A stretch of 64,000 bases of DNA from positions 310,001 to 374,000 of the forward strand of contig NZ_JAKUJZ010000004.1 in the NCBI RefSeq assembly GCF_022436675.1, written 5' to 3'. The stretch comes from Rheinheimera hassiensis. GTDB taxonomy: Bacteria > Pseudomonadota > Gammaproteobacteria > Enterobacterales > Alteromonadaceae. Positions within the stretch are counted from its first letter, which is position 1, and every line of letters starts with the position of its first letter. The translations under genes were made by a program, and so were the position numbers. The notes beneath the pieces were generated by a model. The model was not told the DNA's origin, ran no database searches, and was given only the letters and a program-made list of their open reading frames with translations. This document shows, one piece after another, positions 1,008 to 7,648 of this stretch.

Positions 1008-1161
1008 ATTGATTTCCCTAAAATAAAACATGATGTTAGCAAAAATGTAATTAGATGTACAAGTCACTATCGGAAAAACAACCCGATCACATGATTTTGG
1101 TATACGGTGATATACCAAAGCTGCATTGCAGCCGCCTGTAAAAAGCTTTACACTTGCCGCG

Positions 1162-1243
1162 CAACCAAGGGGTGCAATAGCTGAGATGCCCAAAAGGCGA
1201 ACCCTTAGAACCTGATCCGGATTATACCGGCGGAGGGATGGTG
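1162..1243 (+). promoter_or_regulatory. TPP (thiamine pyrophosphate) riboswitch, THI element
   Basis: The segment carries the conserved THI-box blocks in order: GGGGTGC, GCTGAGA-like CTGAGATG, ACCCTT, GAACCTGATCCGG, then TTATACCGGCGGAGGGA, closed by ACCA (from 1164) pairing with TGGT (to 1242). It lies directly upstream of a TonB receptor operon and predicts repression by thiamine pyrophosphate. Confidence 0.96.
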
Positions 1244-1263
1244 CTAACTCCTCAAGCTGGTGT

Positions 1264-1287
1264 GATCTCTGTGTTTTTATGGAGATT
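1264..1287 (+). promoter_or_regulatory. Hairpin covering the Shine-Dalgarno of the thiamine receptor gene
   Basis: GATCTC at 1264-1269 can pair with GAGATT at 1282-1287 (one G-T wobble), burying the GGAGA Shine-Dalgarno at 1281-1285. No U-tract terminator is seen between the riboswitch and the gene, so control of translation initiation is the likelier mode. This is a prediction from pairing only. Confidence 0.45.
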
Positions 1288-1296
1288 CATACAAAA

Positions 1297-3405
1297 ATGC
1301 GTTTTTTCCCATCGTTAATCGCTGTTGCGGTATGCAGCAGTTTTTCTATGCAAATTCAAGCAGCTGAAACTGTGCCAGAGCCGGTCGATACCGCTATAGA
1401 GCGGATCCGCGTGCAGGGCGATTTTCGCCAGCAGGCAGTACAGCAGGTTGCCGGTAGTATTGCGCTGGTTAGTGAGCAGGATGTTAAGCGCACCTCTGCG
1501 CAGCATCTGGATGACTTACTTAACCAATTTGCCAATGTTAACTTTACCTCCGGCGCATCACGCGGCCGCTATATACAGATGCGCGGCATCGGCGAGCGTA
1601 GTGAGTTTGTTGATACGATAAACCCATCAGTGGGCATATTAATTGATGGTATCGATTATTCCGGTATGGGCATAAGTGGCATCAGTGATTTAGCCCAGCT
1701 GGAAGTATTTCGTGGCCCTGAGGCTACCCGCTTTGGTGCTAATGCACTGGCCGGTATGCTAAACCTGACTACCAAAGGCCCAACGGCGACGCCGGAAGGC
1801 AAGTTCAGCGCTACGCTGGCTAACTACAACAGCCGCCAACTCTCAGGCCAGTTTAGCAATAGCATTAATCAGCAACTGGGTTATAGTTTTTCGCTGGAAC
1901 AGCAAAACTCAGACGGCTTTATTGATAATGCTTATTTAAACCGCGACGATACCAATAATATCGACGAATTTACCGGCCGTTTTAAGCTGCGTTATCAGCC
2001 ATCAGATGCCCTGACACTGCAACTGGTTACGCACTTTACCGATCAGGATAACGGCTATGATGCGTTTTCGCTGGATCGCAACCGCACCACGCTGTCAGAC
2101 GAACCCGGGCAGGATAAGATCCGCAGCAAAGCGCTGGCGCTGCAGGCTGATTACCATGGTTTGCCGTTTGCGACAGTGCTGGCGCAACTGAGTTATTTAA
2201 CGGCCGACAGCGACTATGGTTTTGACGAAGACTGGAGCTATGTCGGTATTCACCCGGATGAATATGCCACTACCGACCGGTACTTACGCAGCCGCGATCA
2301 ACTTACGCTGGATTACCGGTTTGTCTCTACACCCGAGGGTAAGCTGGGCAACAGCGACTGGGTATTTGGCCTCTATGCCACCAGTAAAAACTTTGATTTA
2401 ACGCGGCAGTTTTGGAACTGGGATTTGTCACAGGACGATGAATTTGTCAGCGAGCTCAGCCGCAGCAATGCCGCTGTGTATGGTGAGCTAAGCACGCCGT
2501 TGAGCAGTGGCTGGAGCCTGGTGTCGGGCCTGCGCCTGGAGCGGTATGACGATGACTACAGCGATATCAGCGGTAACAATATTAAAAACCACGACACTAT
2601 GTGGGGCGCCAATTTAAGCCTGAATTATCAGGTAAATAGCCAGGCGTTGGTATACCTGCTGGCGTCGCGTGGTTATAAAACCGGTGGTGTAAATGGCGAT
2701 GCGCTGGCCAAAGCTGCCGATGACAGCTTAAGCGAGCTAAACAGCAAAGCCAGCTTTCAACCTGAAACACTGTACAACGCCGAATTTGGTGTAAAGGGCA
2801 GTGCGTTGGATCAAAGCATTACCGCCAGGGTTGCAGCGTTTTATATGTGGCGTGACGATATGCAGGTTAAAGGCTGGCTTAACCCCGATAGCGGCCCGCA
2901 ATTTGCCGGTTTTATTGATAATGCCGGTAGCGGCCGTAACTACGGTATTGAAATGGAAAACCGCCTGCAACTGCATCCGCAGTTTGCAGTATTTTTATCT
3001 GCCAGCTGGCTCAAAACCAAGCTGGGTAATTATGTCACGCTGGACGAAGAAAATTTCAGCGGCCGTGAGCAGGCCCAGGCGGCACGCTTTCAGTACAGTG
3101 TAGCCACTGACTGGTATATCACCGAAGCCCTTACATTTAATGTCAGCCTGCAGGGCAAAGACGCCTTCTTTTACTCTGACGGCCACAATGCCAGATCGTC
3201 ACGCTACGAGCTGTTGGGCGCGCGCTTAAGCTACCAGCTCACAAACTGGGAGCTGGCAGTATGGACCCGCAACGCGCTGGATCAGGACGTCGGTGTGCGC
3301 GGCTTCTATTTTGGTAACGATCCGCGCGACGGCTACGAGCCACATGTGTATGAGCAATTTGCTGAGCCACGCCGTTTTGGCGTAACGGCCAGCTATCAGT
3401 TCTGA
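1297..3405 (+). CDS. TonB-dependent receptor, probably for thiamine
   Basis: An outer-membrane active-transport receptor of about 702 residues. After a signal peptide ending near IQAAE, an N-terminal plug begins with the ERIRVQG TonB-box-like segment and contains LEVFRGPEATRFGANALAGM, the usual plug motif; a 22-strand barrel follows and ends in the C-terminal Phe of SYQF. The start at 1297 is preferred over an in-frame ATG at 1279, because GGAGA at 1281-1285 is correctly spaced for 1297 and the protein then begins directly with a signal peptide. The TPP riboswitch just upstream and the downstream YkoF-like, PnuT-like and kinase genes point to thiamine or a thiamine derivative as substrate. 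The substrate is inferred from context, not from the barrel sequence. Confidence 0.88.
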   Translation: MRFFPSLIAVAVCSSFSMQIQAAETVPEPVDTAIERIRVQGDFRQQAVQQVAGSIALVSEQDVKRTSAQHLDDLLNQFANVNFTSGASRGRYIQMRGIGERSEFVDTINPSVGILIDGIDYSGMGISGISDLAQLEVFRGPEATRFGANALAGMLNLTTKGPTATPEGKFSATLANYNSRQLSGQFSNSINQQLGYSFSLEQQNSDGFIDNAYLNRDDTNNIDEFTGRFKLRYQPSDALTLQLVTHFTDQDNGYDAFSLDRNRTTLSDEPGQDKIRSKALALQADYHGLPFATVLAQLSYLTADSDYGFDEDWSYVGIHPDEYATTDRYLRSRDQLTLDYRFVSTPEGKLGNSDWVFGLYATSKNFDLTRQFWNWDLSQDDEFVSELSRSNAAVYGELSTPLSSGWSLVSGLRLERYDDDYSDISGNNIKNHDTMWGANLSLNYQVNSQALVYLLASRGYKTGGVNGDALAKAADDSLSELNSKASFQPETLYNAEFGVKGSALDQSITARVAAFYMWRDDMQVKGWLNPDSGPQFAGFIDNAGSGRNYGIEMENRLQLHPQFAVFLSASWLKTKLGNYVTLDEENFSGREQAQAARFQYSVATDWYITEALTFNVSLQGKDAFFYSDGHNARSSRYELLGARLSYQLTNWELAVWTRNALDQDVGVRGFYFGNDPRDGYEPHVYEQFAEPRRFGVTASYQF

Positions 3406-3432
3406 AGCCCGTGATTATTTAAGGAGCAAGTT

Positions 3433-3681
3433 ATGCAGTTATCCGTTGAAATCAGTAAGTATCCGTTAGCCGACGATTATATTACGCCGATAAAAGGCTT
3501 TATTGCCGAGCTAAATAAATACCCGGACGTAACCGTGCTGACCAACACCATGAGCACCCAGTTATTTGGTGATTACGATGCAGTGATGCAGGCCCTGCAG
3601 GCCTGTATTAAATGGTCATTCGAACGTTATGGCAAAGTGGTATTTGTCTGTAAGTTTATTCACGGTGATTTGCGGCCATGA
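3433..3681 (+). CDS. YkoF/MTH1187-like thiamine-binding protein
   Basis: A small protein (82 residues) of the MTH1187/YkoF ferredoxin-like fold, whose members bind thiamine or its hydroxymethylpyrimidine part. The family signature is seen in the N-terminal SVEISKYPL strand, the following YITPIKGFI helix, and the central TNTMSTQLFGDYDAV segment. It has no signal peptide, so it should act in the cytoplasm, perhaps buffering or sensing imported thiamine. A strong AAGGAG lies upstream at normal spacing. Its stop overlaps the start of the next gene by four bases (ATGA), indicating translational coupling within the thiamine operon. Confidence 0.82.
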   Translation: MQLSVEISKYPLADDYITPIKGFIAELNKYPDVTVLTNTMSTQLFGDYDAVMQALQACIKWSFERYGKVVFVCKFIHGDLRP

Positions 3682-4307
3682 ATGAGCTGATCACACAGGC
3701 TATGGCGCAGTGGCAGCTGATGCACAGCCTTGAGCTGGCGGCAACGCTGCTGGCGCTGGCTTATGTGATTCTGGCATTAAAACAAAGCCTGTGGTGCTGG
3801 CCGGCTGCGTTGTTAAGTACGGTGTTGTTTACCCACGTTATGTGGCAGTCGGCATTGTTGTCTGATGCATTGCTACAGCTGTATTACGCTGCTATGGCGT
3901 TGTATGGCTGGTGGCGCTGGCAGCAACTTCGCCAAAGCGCCCCGGATCAACGTGGCCCGGTATACGAGTGGGCCTGGCAGCGCCATGCGCTATTAATTGG
4001 CGTTACTGCTATAGCCGGTGTGGCACTGGGGGTTTTTATGGCAAATTATACTCAGGCCGATTTTGCCTATCTTGATGCCCAAACCACGGTGTTCAGTGTG
4101 ATGGCAACCTGGCTTGTAGCCCGTAAACTGGTGTCAAACTGGTTATACTGGGTGGTGATAGACGCCGTATCAATTTTCGTTTATGCACAAAAACACCTGT
4201 ATTTCCTTACCGGCTTGTTTATGCTGTATACGGTTATCGCTATTGCAGGGTACTTTATTTGGCGCAGTCATTATCAGCAACAACCGGCAGTGAGATTGAG
4301 CATGTAA
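3678..4307 (+). CDS. pnuT: PnuT-like thiamine transporter (PnuC family)
   Basis: An inner-membrane permease of 209 residues with about seven hydrophobic segments. It is of the PnuC vitamin-transporter family, recognisable from LYYAAMALYGWWRW and the conserved NWLYWVVIDAVSIFVY segment near the C-terminus. PnuC members move nicotinamide riboside by facilitated diffusion with trapping by a kinase; the PnuT branch occurs under THI elements and moves thiamine. Here the riboswitch, the YkoF-like gene before it and the kinase gene after it support thiamine. It overlaps both neighbours, so the operon is tightly packed. Assignment to PnuT rather than PnuC rests on the context. Confidence 0.85.
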   Translation: MNELITQAMAQWQLMHSLELAATLLALAYVILALKQSLWCWPAALLSTVLFTHVMWQSALLSDALLQLYYAAMALYGWWRWQQLRQSAPDQRGPVYEWAWQRHALLIGVTAIAGVALGVFMANYTQADFAYLDAQTTVFSVMATWLVARKLVSNWLYWVVIDAVSIFVYAQKHLYFLTGLFMLYTVIAIAGYFIWRSHYQQQPAVRLSM

Positions 4308-5152
4308 CCCGCTTATGCCAGCGGTTGGAGTTTTTTGTCGATCAGCCGCCTGTACAAGTGCGGGCGCTGTCTCATGGTGCCAGTAACCAAAGTTACTATG
4401 TAAAAACAGCACAGGGCGAATATGTACTGCGCTGTTATCCGGCGGAGTCTACCGTATGCCGCCAGCAGGAACTGCGCTGCCAACATGCCGCCGCCGCTAA
4501 AGGGCTTGCCGCTACGCCTTTGTGTTTAAACAATCATTATCAGGTGATGTTAAGCGAATATATCAGCGGTGCTGAACCGTTCGATTATGAGCGCCATGGC
4601 GGTAGTGCCTTAATATCTGTACTGGCGCAGTTTCATCAGTTACAAGTGCAAACCGCTACGCTGGATTATGCCACCTATTTACCGCAATTACTGGCAGCGC
4701 TGCCCGCCAATAACCGCGCCGATAAAACCCTGCTGGCAGCATTGCGACAGGCTGCGCAACAGCTTAGCAGTATGGAGCCTGATGTAGTGTTGTGTCATAT
4801 GGATTTACATCAGGGTAATTTGCTCTGGGCCGCTGATGCACTGTGGTTACTTGATTTTGAATACAGCCAGCAGGCCGACAGCAGCCTGGATTTAGCCGCC
4901 ATAAGTTTACATTTTAACTTAGATAAAACAGCAGAGGCGCAAATGATAGCAGGCTATGCCCGCTCTCGGCAGTGCAACGAACTTGATGCACTGTCAGCCA
5001 AAAAATTACCAGCTGAAAAACTACTGGCCGAAAAGCTGCCTGCAGCAAAGTTGTTGTATAGTGGTTTTTGCTGGTTGTGGTATCTGGCGCTGCCAGATTG
5101 CCAGACGCAGGCAAACTATTGGCAGCAGCAGGTACAAGATTTAACGATGTAG
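4259..5152 (+). CDS. APH-fold kinase, probable thiamine kinase
   Basis: A cytoplasmic phosphotransferase of the choline kinase/aminoglycoside phosphotransferase fold. The N-lobe has HGASNQSYYVKT with a nucleotide-binding strand. The C-lobe shows the Brenner motif CHMDLHQGN (catalytic Asp) and the metal-binding LLDFEY. In this operon the likely job is phosphorylation of thiamine imported by the PnuT-like permease, giving metabolic trapping as ThiK does. The start is uncertain: no in-frame ATG precedes the fold, and the TTG at 4259 overlaps pnuT by 49 bases; TTG at 4325 is another choice. Near the C-terminus four copies of a KLPAEKLL-like unit lie in tandem at about 4990-5055, which is unusual for the family. 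Specificity for thiamine is inferred from context. Confidence 0.75.
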   Translation: MAQSLSATTGSEIEHVTRLCQRLEFFVDQPPVQVRALSHGASNQSYYVKTAQGEYVLRCYPAESTVCRQQELRCQHAAAAKGLAATPLCLNNHYQVMLSEYISGAEPFDYERHGGSALISVLAQFHQLQVQTATLDYATYLPQLLAALPANNRADKTLLAALRQAAQQLSSMEPDVVLCHMDLHQGNLLWAADALWLLDFEYSQQADSSLDLAAISLHFNLDKTAEAQMIAGYARSRQCNELDALSAKKLPAEKLLAEKLPAAKLLYSGFCWLWYLALPDCQTQANYWQQQVQDLTM

Positions 5153-5155
5153 CAG

Positions 5156-5338
5156 TTACAGCCCCCCCAAGCGCTCAGCCAGAGTTTTGTAGCGCTTTAC
5201 ATCGTCTTCGTTAAACAACGGTTTACCTTCGCTGTCTTTATCGGCGGCTATCAGCAAATTTTCCCGTGCCAGTCGCTCTACTCTTACTGTTTGTACGCCA
5301 AGCAAATTTGCAACCTGCTCAACTGTCATTAATGCCAT
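5156..5338 (-). CDS. Small MerR/excisionase-like helix-turn-helix protein
   Basis: A 60-residue protein with a winged helix-turn-helix of the MerR/excisionase type: MTVEQVANLLGV as the first helix pair and VRVERLARENLL as recognition helix, then a KPLFNEDDVKRYK wing segment. It is too short to carry an effector domain. It is convergent with the thiamine kinase gene, whose stop is three bases away, and has no recombinase neighbour that would make it a phage excisionase. Its target is unknown. It is real by its clean domain match and start context but small, so confidence is moderate. Confidence 0.65.
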   Translation of the reverse strand: MALMTVEQVANLLGVQTVRVERLARENLLIAADKDSEGKPLFNEDDVKRYKTLAERLGGL

Positions 5339-5527
5339 AACCTGATCCTATTGAGTAAAAAACTTACAAGTAATAGCCTAAAATCAGGCGTTTGTGAATA
5401 GCTAACTGATAAAGCCTGCTTAGCTCAAAGCAATGTCACACTCCGTTACACTTTTTAAACAGCGGCTAATAGTGTTGCCCGGAACAGCGTGCTAATTTCA
5501 TCTGTTACCGTTATAGAGAGCCTAACC

Positions 5528-7648
5528 ATGAAAACAACATTCTATTCATTATTATTTACTGCCCTGATTAGCAGTGGTCTGGCCCATGCTGCCCAGCCAG
5601 CAGCACCGGTGGCAGTGCAGCAGCCTTATACTGTTAAATCTCCTAATGGCGACCGGCAAGACCCTTTTTACTGGCTGCGCGACGACAGCCGCACCTCGGC
5701 AACCGTGCTGGATTACCTGCAACAGGAAAATGAATACTTTGCCGGATACGCCAGCAAATATCAGCCACTTACTGCCAAACTAACAGATGAAATTATTGGC
5801 CGAATTAAACAGGACGACAGCTCTGTACCTTACAACAAAGGCGATTATAGCTACTACCGTCGTTTTGAAACCGGCCAGGAATATCCGGTTTATGCGCGTA
5901 AGTCATTAAAAGATGGCACCGAGCAAATTATGCTGGATGTTAACCAGCTGGCGCAGGGTAAAGACTTTTATCAGGTGGCCAACTGGCAGGTAAGCCCGGA
6001 CCAAAACCTGCTGGCTTACATGGAAGACAGTAATGGCCGGCGTCAATATACGCTTAAAGTACGTGATTTACGCACCGGCCAGGATTTACCCGATCAACTT
6101 ATCGGCTTATCCGGCAGTCTGGCCTGGGCACAGGACAATAAAACGCTGTACGTGATTAAAAATGACCCGGTAACCCTGCTTAGCACTAAGGTATTGCAGC
6201 ATACGCTGGGCAATGATCCTGCCAGTGCCCGTCAGGTATATGAAGAAAAAGACAATAGCTTTTACATGGGCGTTGGTAACACGCTGGACGATAAGTATGT
6301 AATGATTTATTCCAGCAGCACAGTGTCTGGCGAAATACGGGTGCAGGATGCCAGCAAGCCACAAAGTGAGTTTAGCGTTATCGCACCACGCCAGCGTGAT
6401 TTTCAGTATACGGCCGAGCATCTTAATGGCCGCTGGATTATCAATACCGACTGGGATGCACCTAATTTTCGCTTGATGACAGTAGAAACCGCTAAGCTGG
6501 GCGATCGTAACAACTGGCAGCCGCTGGTAGCGCACGATGAAAAGGTATTTATTGATGGTTTTGAAGCCTTTGATAATTATCTGGCCATTAGCGAGCGCAG
6601 TAATGGCCTGCGCCGTATTAAAGTAATGCCATGGAATGCGCCGGACAAAGCCTTTTATGTGGCATCAGACGAAGCTGCCTATGTAACCACTTTTGAAACA
6701 AACCCGGAGCAAAATACCGACTGGTTACGCTACACCTATACATCACTGACCACACCGCAAAGTGTGTATCAGTTGAATATGAAAACCGGTGAAAAACAGC
6801 TGCTTAAAGAAACCGAAGTATTGGGCGGTTTCGATAAAAATAATTACGCTACTGATCGCGTATGGGCCACCGCCGCCGATGGCGTAAAAATACCGGTGTC
6901 TTTATTGTATAAAAAAGGCGTTAAAGCCGACGGTACTGCACCTTTGTATCAGTATGCTTATGGCTCTTATGGTAGCTCGTCTGATCCGGCATTTCGCTCT
7001 ACCGTGTTCTCGTTGGTTGACCGGGGTTTTGTTTATGCGATTGCCCATATTCGCGGCGGGCAGGAAATGGGCCGCCACTGGTATGAAGATGGCAAACTGC
7101 TGAAAAAAATTAATACCTTTACCGATTACATCGCCGTAACCGATTATCTGGTAGCCAATAAATACGCCGCCAAAGATAAAGTGTTTGGCATGGGTGGCAG
7201 TGCTGGCGGCTTGCTGATGGGCGCAGTGGCAAACATGGCACCGGAAAAATACCGCGCACTGGTAGCGCACGTACCTTTTGTTGATGTGGTTACCACCATG
7301 CTGGATGAAAGTATTCCGCTTACCACCAACGAGTTTGACGAGTGGGGCAACCCGAAGCAAAAAGCCTATTACGATTATATGCTGTCGTATTCGCCGTATG
7401 ATCAGCTGAGCAAGCAGGCTTACCCGGCATTGCTGGTAACCACCGGCTTACATGATTCCCAGGTGCAGTATTTTGAACCGGCCAAATGGGTAGCTAAATT
7501 ACGTACGCTAAAAACCGACAACCAGCCATTATTGTTTAAAACCAATATGGAGGCTGGCCACGGTGGTAAATCTGGCCGTTTTTCACGCTTAGCCGAGTAC
7601 GCGCAGGAATATGCCTTTATTCTTAACCTGCTGGGGCAAACCGAGTAA
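5528..7648 (+). CDS. Secreted prolyl oligopeptidase (S9A family)
   Basis: A serine peptidase that cleaves after proline in short peptides, here exported: MKTTFYSLLFTALISSGLAHA is a signal peptide. The N-terminal part starts with the family's PYTVKSPNGDRQDPFYWLRDD and continues into a seven-bladed propeller; the C-terminal alpha/beta-hydrolase domain holds the nucleophile in GMGGSAGG (about residue 558), the Asp in GLHDSQV (about 642) and the His in EAGHGGKSGR (about 677). Length (706 residues) fits the family. The frame extends upstream to a GTG at 5489, but the ATG at 5528 directly begins the signal peptide and is preferred. It is monocistronic, with a terminator downstream. Confidence 0.93.
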   Translation: MKTTFYSLLFTALISSGLAHAAQPAAPVAVQQPYTVKSPNGDRQDPFYWLRDDSRTSATVLDYLQQENEYFAGYASKYQPLTAKLTDEIIGRIKQDDSSVPYNKGDYSYYRRFETGQEYPVYARKSLKDGTEQIMLDVNQLAQGKDFYQVANWQVSPDQNLLAYMEDSNGRRQYTLKVRDLRTGQDLPDQLIGLSGSLAWAQDNKTLYVIKNDPVTLLSTKVLQHTLGNDPASARQVYEEKDNSFYMGVGNTLDDKYVMIYSSSTVSGEIRVQDASKPQSEFSVIAPRQRDFQYTAEHLNGRWIINTDWDAPNFRLMTVETAKLGDRNNWQPLVAHDEKVFIDGFEAFDNYLAISERSNGLRRIKVMPWNAPDKAFYVASDEAAYVTTFETNPEQNTDWLRYTYTSLTTPQSVYQLNMKTGEKQLLKETEVLGGFDKNNYATDRVWATAADGVKIPVSLLYKKGVKADGTAPLYQYAYGSYGSSSDPAFRSTVFSLVDRGFVYAIAHIRGGQEMGRHWYEDGKLLKKINTFTDYIAVTDYLVANKYAAKDKVFGMGGSAGGLLMGAVANMAPEKYRALVAHVPFVDVVTTMLDESIPLTTNEFDEWGNPKQKAYYDYMLSYSPYDQLSKQAYPALLVTTGLHDSQVQYFEPAKWVAKLRTLKTDNQPLLFKTNMEAGHGGKSGRFSRLAEYAQEYAFILNLLGQTE

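Follow-up and report, generated by a model that had tools for sequence, protein, structure and literature searches.

Four neighbouring genes were analysed near the start of a 64,000-nucleotide stretch of Rheinheimera hassiensis DNA (contig NZ_JAKUJZ010000004.1), called the window here. They lie behind a single thiamine pyrophosphate (TPP) riboswitch and encode a TonB-dependent outer-membrane receptor, a small YkoF-type protein, a PnuT-type permease and a kinase of the APH fold. Together they very probably form a salvage operon for thiamine (vitamin B1), in which the vitamin is imported and then trapped by phosphorylation. An earlier note on this DNA had named the same four gene classes behind one riboswitch, and Rfam and Pfam matches confirmed that part of it. 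The features, all on the forward strand, are:

1158-1255 (+): TPP riboswitch aptamer (THI element), Rfam RF00059, 70.1 bits against a gathering score of 54.3
1219-1292 (+): predicted expression platform with alternative hairpins, proposed from folding
1297-3405 (+), with a longer open reading frame from 1279: TonB-dependent outer-membrane receptor of the Omr1/OMthi type, Pfam plug 54.1 bits and barrel 101.5 bits
3433-3681 (+): single-domain YkoF-type protein of 82 amino acids, Pfam Ykof 25.4 bits, cut-off 21
3678-4307 (+): PnuT-type inner-membrane permease, Pfam NMN_transporter 171.6 bits
4259-5152 (+): APH-fold small-molecule kinase with a TTG start, proposed to be a thiamine kinase, Pfam APH 82.1 bits

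The genes were described earlier as four tightly overlapping ones. This holds for the ykoF and pnuT genes, which overlap by 4 nt, and for pnuT and the kinase gene, which overlap by 49 nt, but not for the receptor and ykoF genes, which are separated by a gap of 27 nt. Start codons and leaders were compared with those of 16 relatives picked from 21 Rheinheimera- and Arsukibacterium-like loci. For the receptor, a start at 1297 is likelier than one at 1279: a conserved GGAG lies 12 nt upstream, and the resulting N-terminus looks like a signal peptide by eye. All 11 Rheinheimera loci examined share the TTG start of the kinase, and the matching position is ATG in all five from Arsukibacterium. Judged by the YkoF-type protein, the closest named relative is Rheinheimera pacifica (98% over 82 residues).

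The same arrangement recurs throughout the family. A YkoF-type protein was found in 140 of the 147 sampled family genomes, representing 49 of 52 genera, and when one locus per genus was taken, 43 of the 49 genera had contiguous receptor, YkoF, PnuT and kinase genes on the same strand. A gathering-level TPP riboswitch accompanies 40 of these 43 loci (the others are L069, L071 and L079), and one further genus has YkoF, PnuT and kinase genes but no receptor (L050). A set of 80 named loci was compared as well; these were the 80 best of 90 found, with a bias towards close relatives. The full set of four genes is present in 53 of them, the receptor is missing from 16 (15 from Pseudoalteromonas and one from Shewanellaceae), 10 are solitary YkoF-type genes in Pseudidiomarina or Idiomarina, and one ends at a contig edge before the kinase.

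Outside this one family the system is sporadic and its order is stable. A survey of the class found a match to the YkoF-type protein in 13 of 274 genomes, two of them in the family and one (G290) marginal. In the 10 genomes from other families, the order and strand of receptor, YkoF and PnuT are kept every time, and nine of the loci have the riboswitch, the tenth being cut by the contig start. The operon kinase follows PnuT in four of the nine whose contig is long enough. Gene order kept across so many genera indicates that the arrangement is not due to chance. The earlier note had proposed such a neighbourhood survey and named a lack of conserved order among relatives as one of the results that would count against it; the survey found the opposite.

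In the five non-family loci without the operon kinase, a convergent gene faces pnuT, and it scores above the Pfam APH cut-off of 23.2 bits in two loci, just under it in one and gives no Pfam match in two (L230 and L233). The three APH-like genes are at 5653-6558 (-) in L227, with 24.2 bits, at 2887-3579 (+) in L228, with 22.1 bits, and at 4975-5844 (-) in L232, with 32.5 bits. Genome G291 carries an additional, solitary YkoF-type copy. In loci from two other gammaproteobacterial families, L230 and L229, a gene with a methyltransferase domain (4390-5022 and 3826-4464, both +) lies between the receptor gene and the YkoF-type gene next to pnuT. It may take part in thiamine salvage. L230 also has two YkoF-type genes in one operon (4129-4377 and 5037-5303, both +), which flank the methyltransferase gene.

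The riboswitch at 1158-1255 is the sole Rfam match at gathering level within the window. It is one of two TPP riboswitches in the genome, the second of which precedes a thiC-type cluster read as thiC-thiDE-thiG-thiH. The segment that follows the aptamer, GCTGGTGTGATCTC (1256-1269), has two predicted pairing partners: the 3' part of the aptamer, and GGAG...TCATAC (1281-1292), which lies around the Shine-Dalgarno sequence of the receptor gene. In all 17 Rheinheimera and Arsukibacterium leaders the order after the aptamer is the same: an invariant segment, a variable linker, and then GGAG...TCATAC...ATG. Both alternative hairpins are predicted in all 17. The helix between the segment and the aptamer has 12-13 pairs and about -25 to -26 kcal/mol including the hairpin it encloses, and the Shine-Dalgarno hairpin has -11.9 to -14.6 kcal/mol. 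Each of the 17 leaders was set against 100 simple shuffles of its letters, of which 0 to 2 were as low. The sequestering hairpin of the window taken alone has a z score of -3.99 against shuffles, and those of two relatives have -3.55 and -2.13; the leader as a whole shows no such advantage over shuffles (z -0.44). The leader sequences come from close relatives, and covariation support is thin.

Of the nine terminator-like sites listed in the whole region (5.0, standard deviation 2.5, in shuffles), none falls between the end of the aptamer and the start codon at 1297, which argues for a translational model. Since the two leader structures are mutually exclusive, they suggest that the operon is under translational control by TPP. 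At high TPP the aptamer would fold and leave the segment after it free to pair with the Shine-Dalgarno sequence, so that translation of the receptor would be blocked. At low TPP the segment would pair with the 3' part of the aptamer instead, and the ribosome site would be open.

The receptor has the features by which thiamin TonB-dependent receptors are recognized: plug and barrel domains, a TPP riboswitch in front and a pnuT gene nearby. The permease belongs to the Pnu family by its NMN_transporter match (171.6 bits). From the riboswitch, the operon context and the relatives, we infer that both proteins carry thiamine. The genome also has a second, distinct Pnu paralogue (109.1 vs 274.2 bits), perhaps a nicotinamide riboside transporter; it lies at G000:C51:226600-227157 (L250), and in it WWFW replaces the WLYW motif. 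In two related loci, L064 and L068, a tandem pair of PnuT-type genes was seen in one operon.

The rest of the genome was searched for the enzymes that would use the imported vitamin. ThiL is present (350.6 bits). The thiamine pyrophosphokinase model TIGR01378 has no match in the genome; since the model matched 7 of 14 control genomes, the missing match does not prove that the enzyme is absent. Without a pyrophosphokinase, imported thiamine is usable only through a thiamine kinase and ThiL; if that enzyme is truly absent, the imported thiamine would therefore need a thiamine kinase. The genome has seven APH-family matches: the operon kinase, three partial matches inside long reading frames, and three full-length proteins which, named by reading, resemble SrkA, a fructosamine-kinase relative and methylthioribose kinase. 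Apart from the operon kinase, the genome has no evident candidate for a thiamine kinase.

The proposed route runs as follows. The TonB-dependent receptor would pull scarce thiamine through the outer membrane, and the PnuT-type permease would pass it over the inner membrane, probably by facilitated diffusion. PnuT is reportedly a facilitated-diffusion thiamine transporter, according to the title of one paper. The YkoF-type protein, at or near the permease, would hold the incoming thiamine and keep it available to the kinase, the kinase would make thiamine phosphate, which would be retained in the cell, and the chromosomal ThiL would convert the thiamine phosphate to TPP. The earlier note had described a complete route from outside the cell to thiamine phosphate; its riboswitch, protein classes and gene order stand, and the activity of the kinase rests on models and context.

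Out of 18950 NCBIfam models, the best for the kinase is ThiK (TIGR02721, 82.0 bits), and all 34 aligned operon kinases match this model at E 0.001 or better. ThiK is the top NCBIfam model in nine of 10 operon kinases given a detailed scan; the exception is L050, for which a guanitoxin-biosynthesis kinase model has the higher score. The operon kinase resembles E. coli ThiK (YcfN) in its APH fold and in a similar catalytic loop (CHMDLHQGN vs LHMDVHAGN), and differs from it in setting, the E. coli gene being flanked by lpoB and nagZ. From the models and the genomic context, the kinase likely has a ThiK-like function, with a score below the ThiK equivalog cut-off. A canonical ThiK was looked for in the class as well: 68 of 274 genomes have some TIGR02721 match, and none is over the cut-off, so that they gave no useful reference set. 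The motif HxDxxxxN, which we take to be the catalytic loop of these kinases, is intact in the window's protein, and its Asn is His in many operon kinases of other genera (L037, L038, L047, L080 and others; for example CHHDLAFEH).

The YkoF-type protein is the least familiar part of the operon. It scores above the Pfam Ykof cut-off (25.4 vs 21 bits), and the fold of its AlphaFold2 model (predicted local distance difference test score 95.6) agrees with the YkoF/MTH1187 superfamily of thiamine-binding proteins. Of 54 members aligned, 36 match Ykof and 37 match Thiamine_BP at E 0.01. Fifteen PDB chains match the model below E 0.001, one of them designed and 14 natural: MJ1052, SP2199, TM0486, YBL001c, a B. 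cereus DUF77 protein and MTH1187, all of which we take to form one superfamily with YkoF. The complex of B. subtilis YkoF with thiamin (1sbr) falls just above E 0.001 and has the same fold (template modelling score, TM, 0.83). The B. subtilis protein has two domains per chain and goes with an energy-coupling factor (ECF) transporter, whereas the protein here is a single domain of 82 amino acids encoded with PnuT. With one domain in place of two, the protein would have to form an oligomer to restore the arrangement seen in YkoF. No signal peptide was seen by eye on the YkoF-type protein, so it should be cytosolic. By analogy with these relatives, it is most likely a cytosolic, homo-oligomeric thiamine binder.

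What it might bind thiamine for was approached through the company that its gene keeps. The gene stands directly before pnuT in 44 of 49 genera, and in five genomes from three families outside its own (f4, f55 and f147) the two genes stay paired where the operon kinase is missing; its link to the permease is thus closer than that to the kinase. In five of the 49 genera, the YkoF-type gene is solitary and without a riboswitch; two such copies, L058 and L060, are 71% and 78% identical to the window's protein. In the three of these genera in which the other genes were looked for, receptor, PnuT and kinase genes lie elsewhere under a TPP riboswitch of their own, in seven of seven loci from seven genomes, the loci having been chosen for a PnuT match and a riboswitch close to each other. 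One of the seven genomes, G026, has no match to the YkoF-type protein, and G035, from the solitary genus g35, has no match to PnuT. Uptake and phosphorylation can thus be encoded without a YkoF-type gene nearby, and vice versa.

The earlier note had suggested that the YkoF-type protein may deliver thiamine to the kinase. This is one of two candidate models. The pairs without the operon kinase, together with the solitary genes, make a cytosolic thiamine binder near the permease likelier than a hand-off to the kinase. The solitary genes, the receptor-PnuT-kinase loci under their own riboswitch and the G026 genome also fit another role, in which the YkoF-type protein is a general buffer or sensor of the thiamine and TPP pool and is merely co-regulated with the operon. 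This would be compatible with thiamine salvage by the other three proteins, and we regard it as a possibility to be kept in view, although the position directly before pnuT in most genera, the same order with PnuT in all 10 non-family genomes and the 4-nt overlap of the two genes in the window speak for a closer tie to the permease. A more specific proposal seems unlikely at present: the single-domain YkoF would be a dedicated partner of PnuT that docks on the inside, takes thiamine from the inner mouth and makes uptake one-way at nanomolar levels before phosphorylation, and the kinase slot would be filled by differing APH-fold enzymes in each lineage. If true, it would be a substrate-binding protein that acts on the inner side of a channel-like transporter. 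The pairing of ykoF with pnuT in any case raises a testable question, namely what a cytosolic vitamin binder adds to a facilitated-diffusion transporter.

The operon might instead import and phosphorylate a precursor or breakdown product of thiamine, such as hydroxymethylpyrimidine (HMP) or an aminopyrimidine, with the YkoF-type protein as a binder of HMP. The title of a paper known from a reference list places B. subtilis YkoF in a thiamin/HMP-binding family, and the genome's ThiD-ThiE-like protein, so named by reading, could use HMP. We consider this improbable: it is established that ThiD phosphorylates HMP already, which would make an extra ThiK-type kinase redundant, ThiK is the best model for the kinase, and in Bacteroides PnuT and its receptor serve the uptake of thiamine itself (PMC5613172).

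Several points weigh against thiamine salvage. In Bacteroides, single deletions of the receptor or of pnuT had no effect, and the receptor and pnuT transcripts changed little with thiamine (PMC5613172). The permease is over the NCBIfam cut-off for PnuC, the nicotinamide riboside transporter (79.9 vs 42.45 bits), and PnuC models are its sole meaningful NCBIfam matches. The kinase is far under the ThiK equivalog cut-off (82.0 vs 299.45 bits), a threshold that all 10 of the operon kinases examined in detail fail to reach. BLASTP of the kinase against E. coli ThiK gives one meaningful stretch, 56 residues at 38%. The kinase is also over the Pfam Choline_kinase (PF01633) cut-off (39.8 vs 29 bits), with a score well below the 82.1 bits that the same protein has for APH. 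The closest solved structures to its AlphaFold2 model (predicted local distance difference test score 94.7) are choline kinases, LicA first (TM 0.81). The structure comparison cannot decide the kinase family: the 60 PDB sequence matches listed, out of 100, include none named as a thiamine kinase. Finally, the operon kinases are very diverse (mean column identity 24%) and split into separate groups in a first tree, so that one shared substrate is not proven.

In that first tree, whose reference rows were badly truncated, the wider clade of the window's kinase adjoins two choline kinases and unnamed APH proteins with 90/88 support. The tree was rebuilt without the rows ThrBalt_L238, ThrBalt_L240, APHunk_L200, FN3K_own and MtnK_own, and approximately unbiased (AU) tests were run on 45 rows, with groups partly defined after sight of the first tree and with a single true ThiK, from E. 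coli, on a long branch. Grouping with two choline kinases was rejected both for the four-row clade of the window (p-AU 0.005) and, with those two alone, for the wider seven-row clade (p-AU 0.007). Grouping with E. coli ThiK was not rejected, either for the four-row clade (p-AU 0.22) or for all operon kinases as one clade with it (p-AU 0.23); all operon kinases as one clade gave p-AU 0.25. On the other side, the seven-row clade with the choline kinases and three unnamed APH rows (p-AU 0.40) and with four homoserine kinases (p-AU 0.12) was not rejected either, and both results belong with the adverse points above. The tree leaves the nearest known kinase family undecided. The earlier note had named a kinase grouped with choline or homoserine kinases as counting against it; the narrow choline groupings are rejected, and the wider choline grouping and the homoserine grouping are not.

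The Choline_kinase and PnuC cut-offs, the closeness to LicA and the wider choline grouping could be read as signs of an operon for another nutrient, with a choline- or nicotinamide-riboside-type kinase and a PnuC permease, yet this is highly improbable given the TPP riboswitch in front here and in most relatives examined, ThiK as the best NCBIfam model, the rejected narrow groupings and the separate Pnu paralogue in the genome.

Thiamine salvage by this set of proteins has precedents. As the earlier note said, receptors linked to THI elements and PnuT had been predicted before; a receptor and permease with a TPP riboswitch are known from Shewanella and Bacteroides (PMC2659441, PMC5955497, PMC5613172). 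In Shewanella oneidensis there is likewise a TPP riboswitch upstream of a TonB-dependent receptor, SO2715 (PMC2659441), which stands in a receptor list whose cluster substrates include thiamin (PMC3400609), and two locus numbers away SO2713 is pnuT, a 'predicted thiamin transporter' (PMC5955497). Thiamin receptors co-located with PnuT have been discussed, with proof noted as lacking (PMC2771747). A whole-word literature search found no paper that names SO2714 or SO2712, which are perhaps the YkoF-type and kinase genes. The Shewanellaceae locus examined here, L190, has the riboswitch followed by YkoF, PnuT and kinase genes, and no receptor.

A similar operon is known from Bacteroidetes, where OMthi, pnuT and tnr3 follow a TPP riboswitch and form one operon in most genomes examined there (PMC5613172). 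It shares with the window's operon the riboswitch, the TonB-dependent receptor, PnuT and a thiamine-converting enzyme. It differs in its third gene, which is tnr3 rather than an APH-fold kinase gene, and the excerpts of the paper mention no YkoF-type gene. In Bacteroides thetaiotaomicron that has lost biosynthesis, further loss of the receptor or of PnuT increases the need for thiamine about tenfold (PMC5613172).

The novelty is accordingly moderate and lies in the pairing of YkoF with PnuT, the main parts being familiar. Among the matches listed in the literature searches, no description was found of a YkoF-type gene and an APH kinase gene as regular members of such an operon; Rodionov 2002 or RegPrecise may list the combination. 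Seawater holds little thiamine, and many bacterioplankton depend on an outside supply (PMC10881298). For models of vitamin exchange it therefore matters exactly how Alteromonas-like bacteria take thiamine up, and the operon context could also assist in naming many proteins whose present label is just 'APH family' or 'YkoF-like'.

Two other ideas were tried and rejected. A role of the APH and YkoF proteins in a defence system was dropped after PADLOC gave no match at E 0.001. Directly after the kinase, at 5156-5338 (-), lies a convergent gene for a 60-amino-acid helix-turn-helix protein (Pfam HTH_17, 27.9 bits, cut-off 27), which was considered as a regulator of the operon. Of 160 loci, 60 have a relative of it, which going by its coordinates lies just beyond the kinase; receptor-less Pseudoalteromonas loci are among these 60. 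In many other genera it lies far from the operon (it is present in 74 of 147 genomes, one of them marginal), so that an inherited neighbourhood is the simpler reading.

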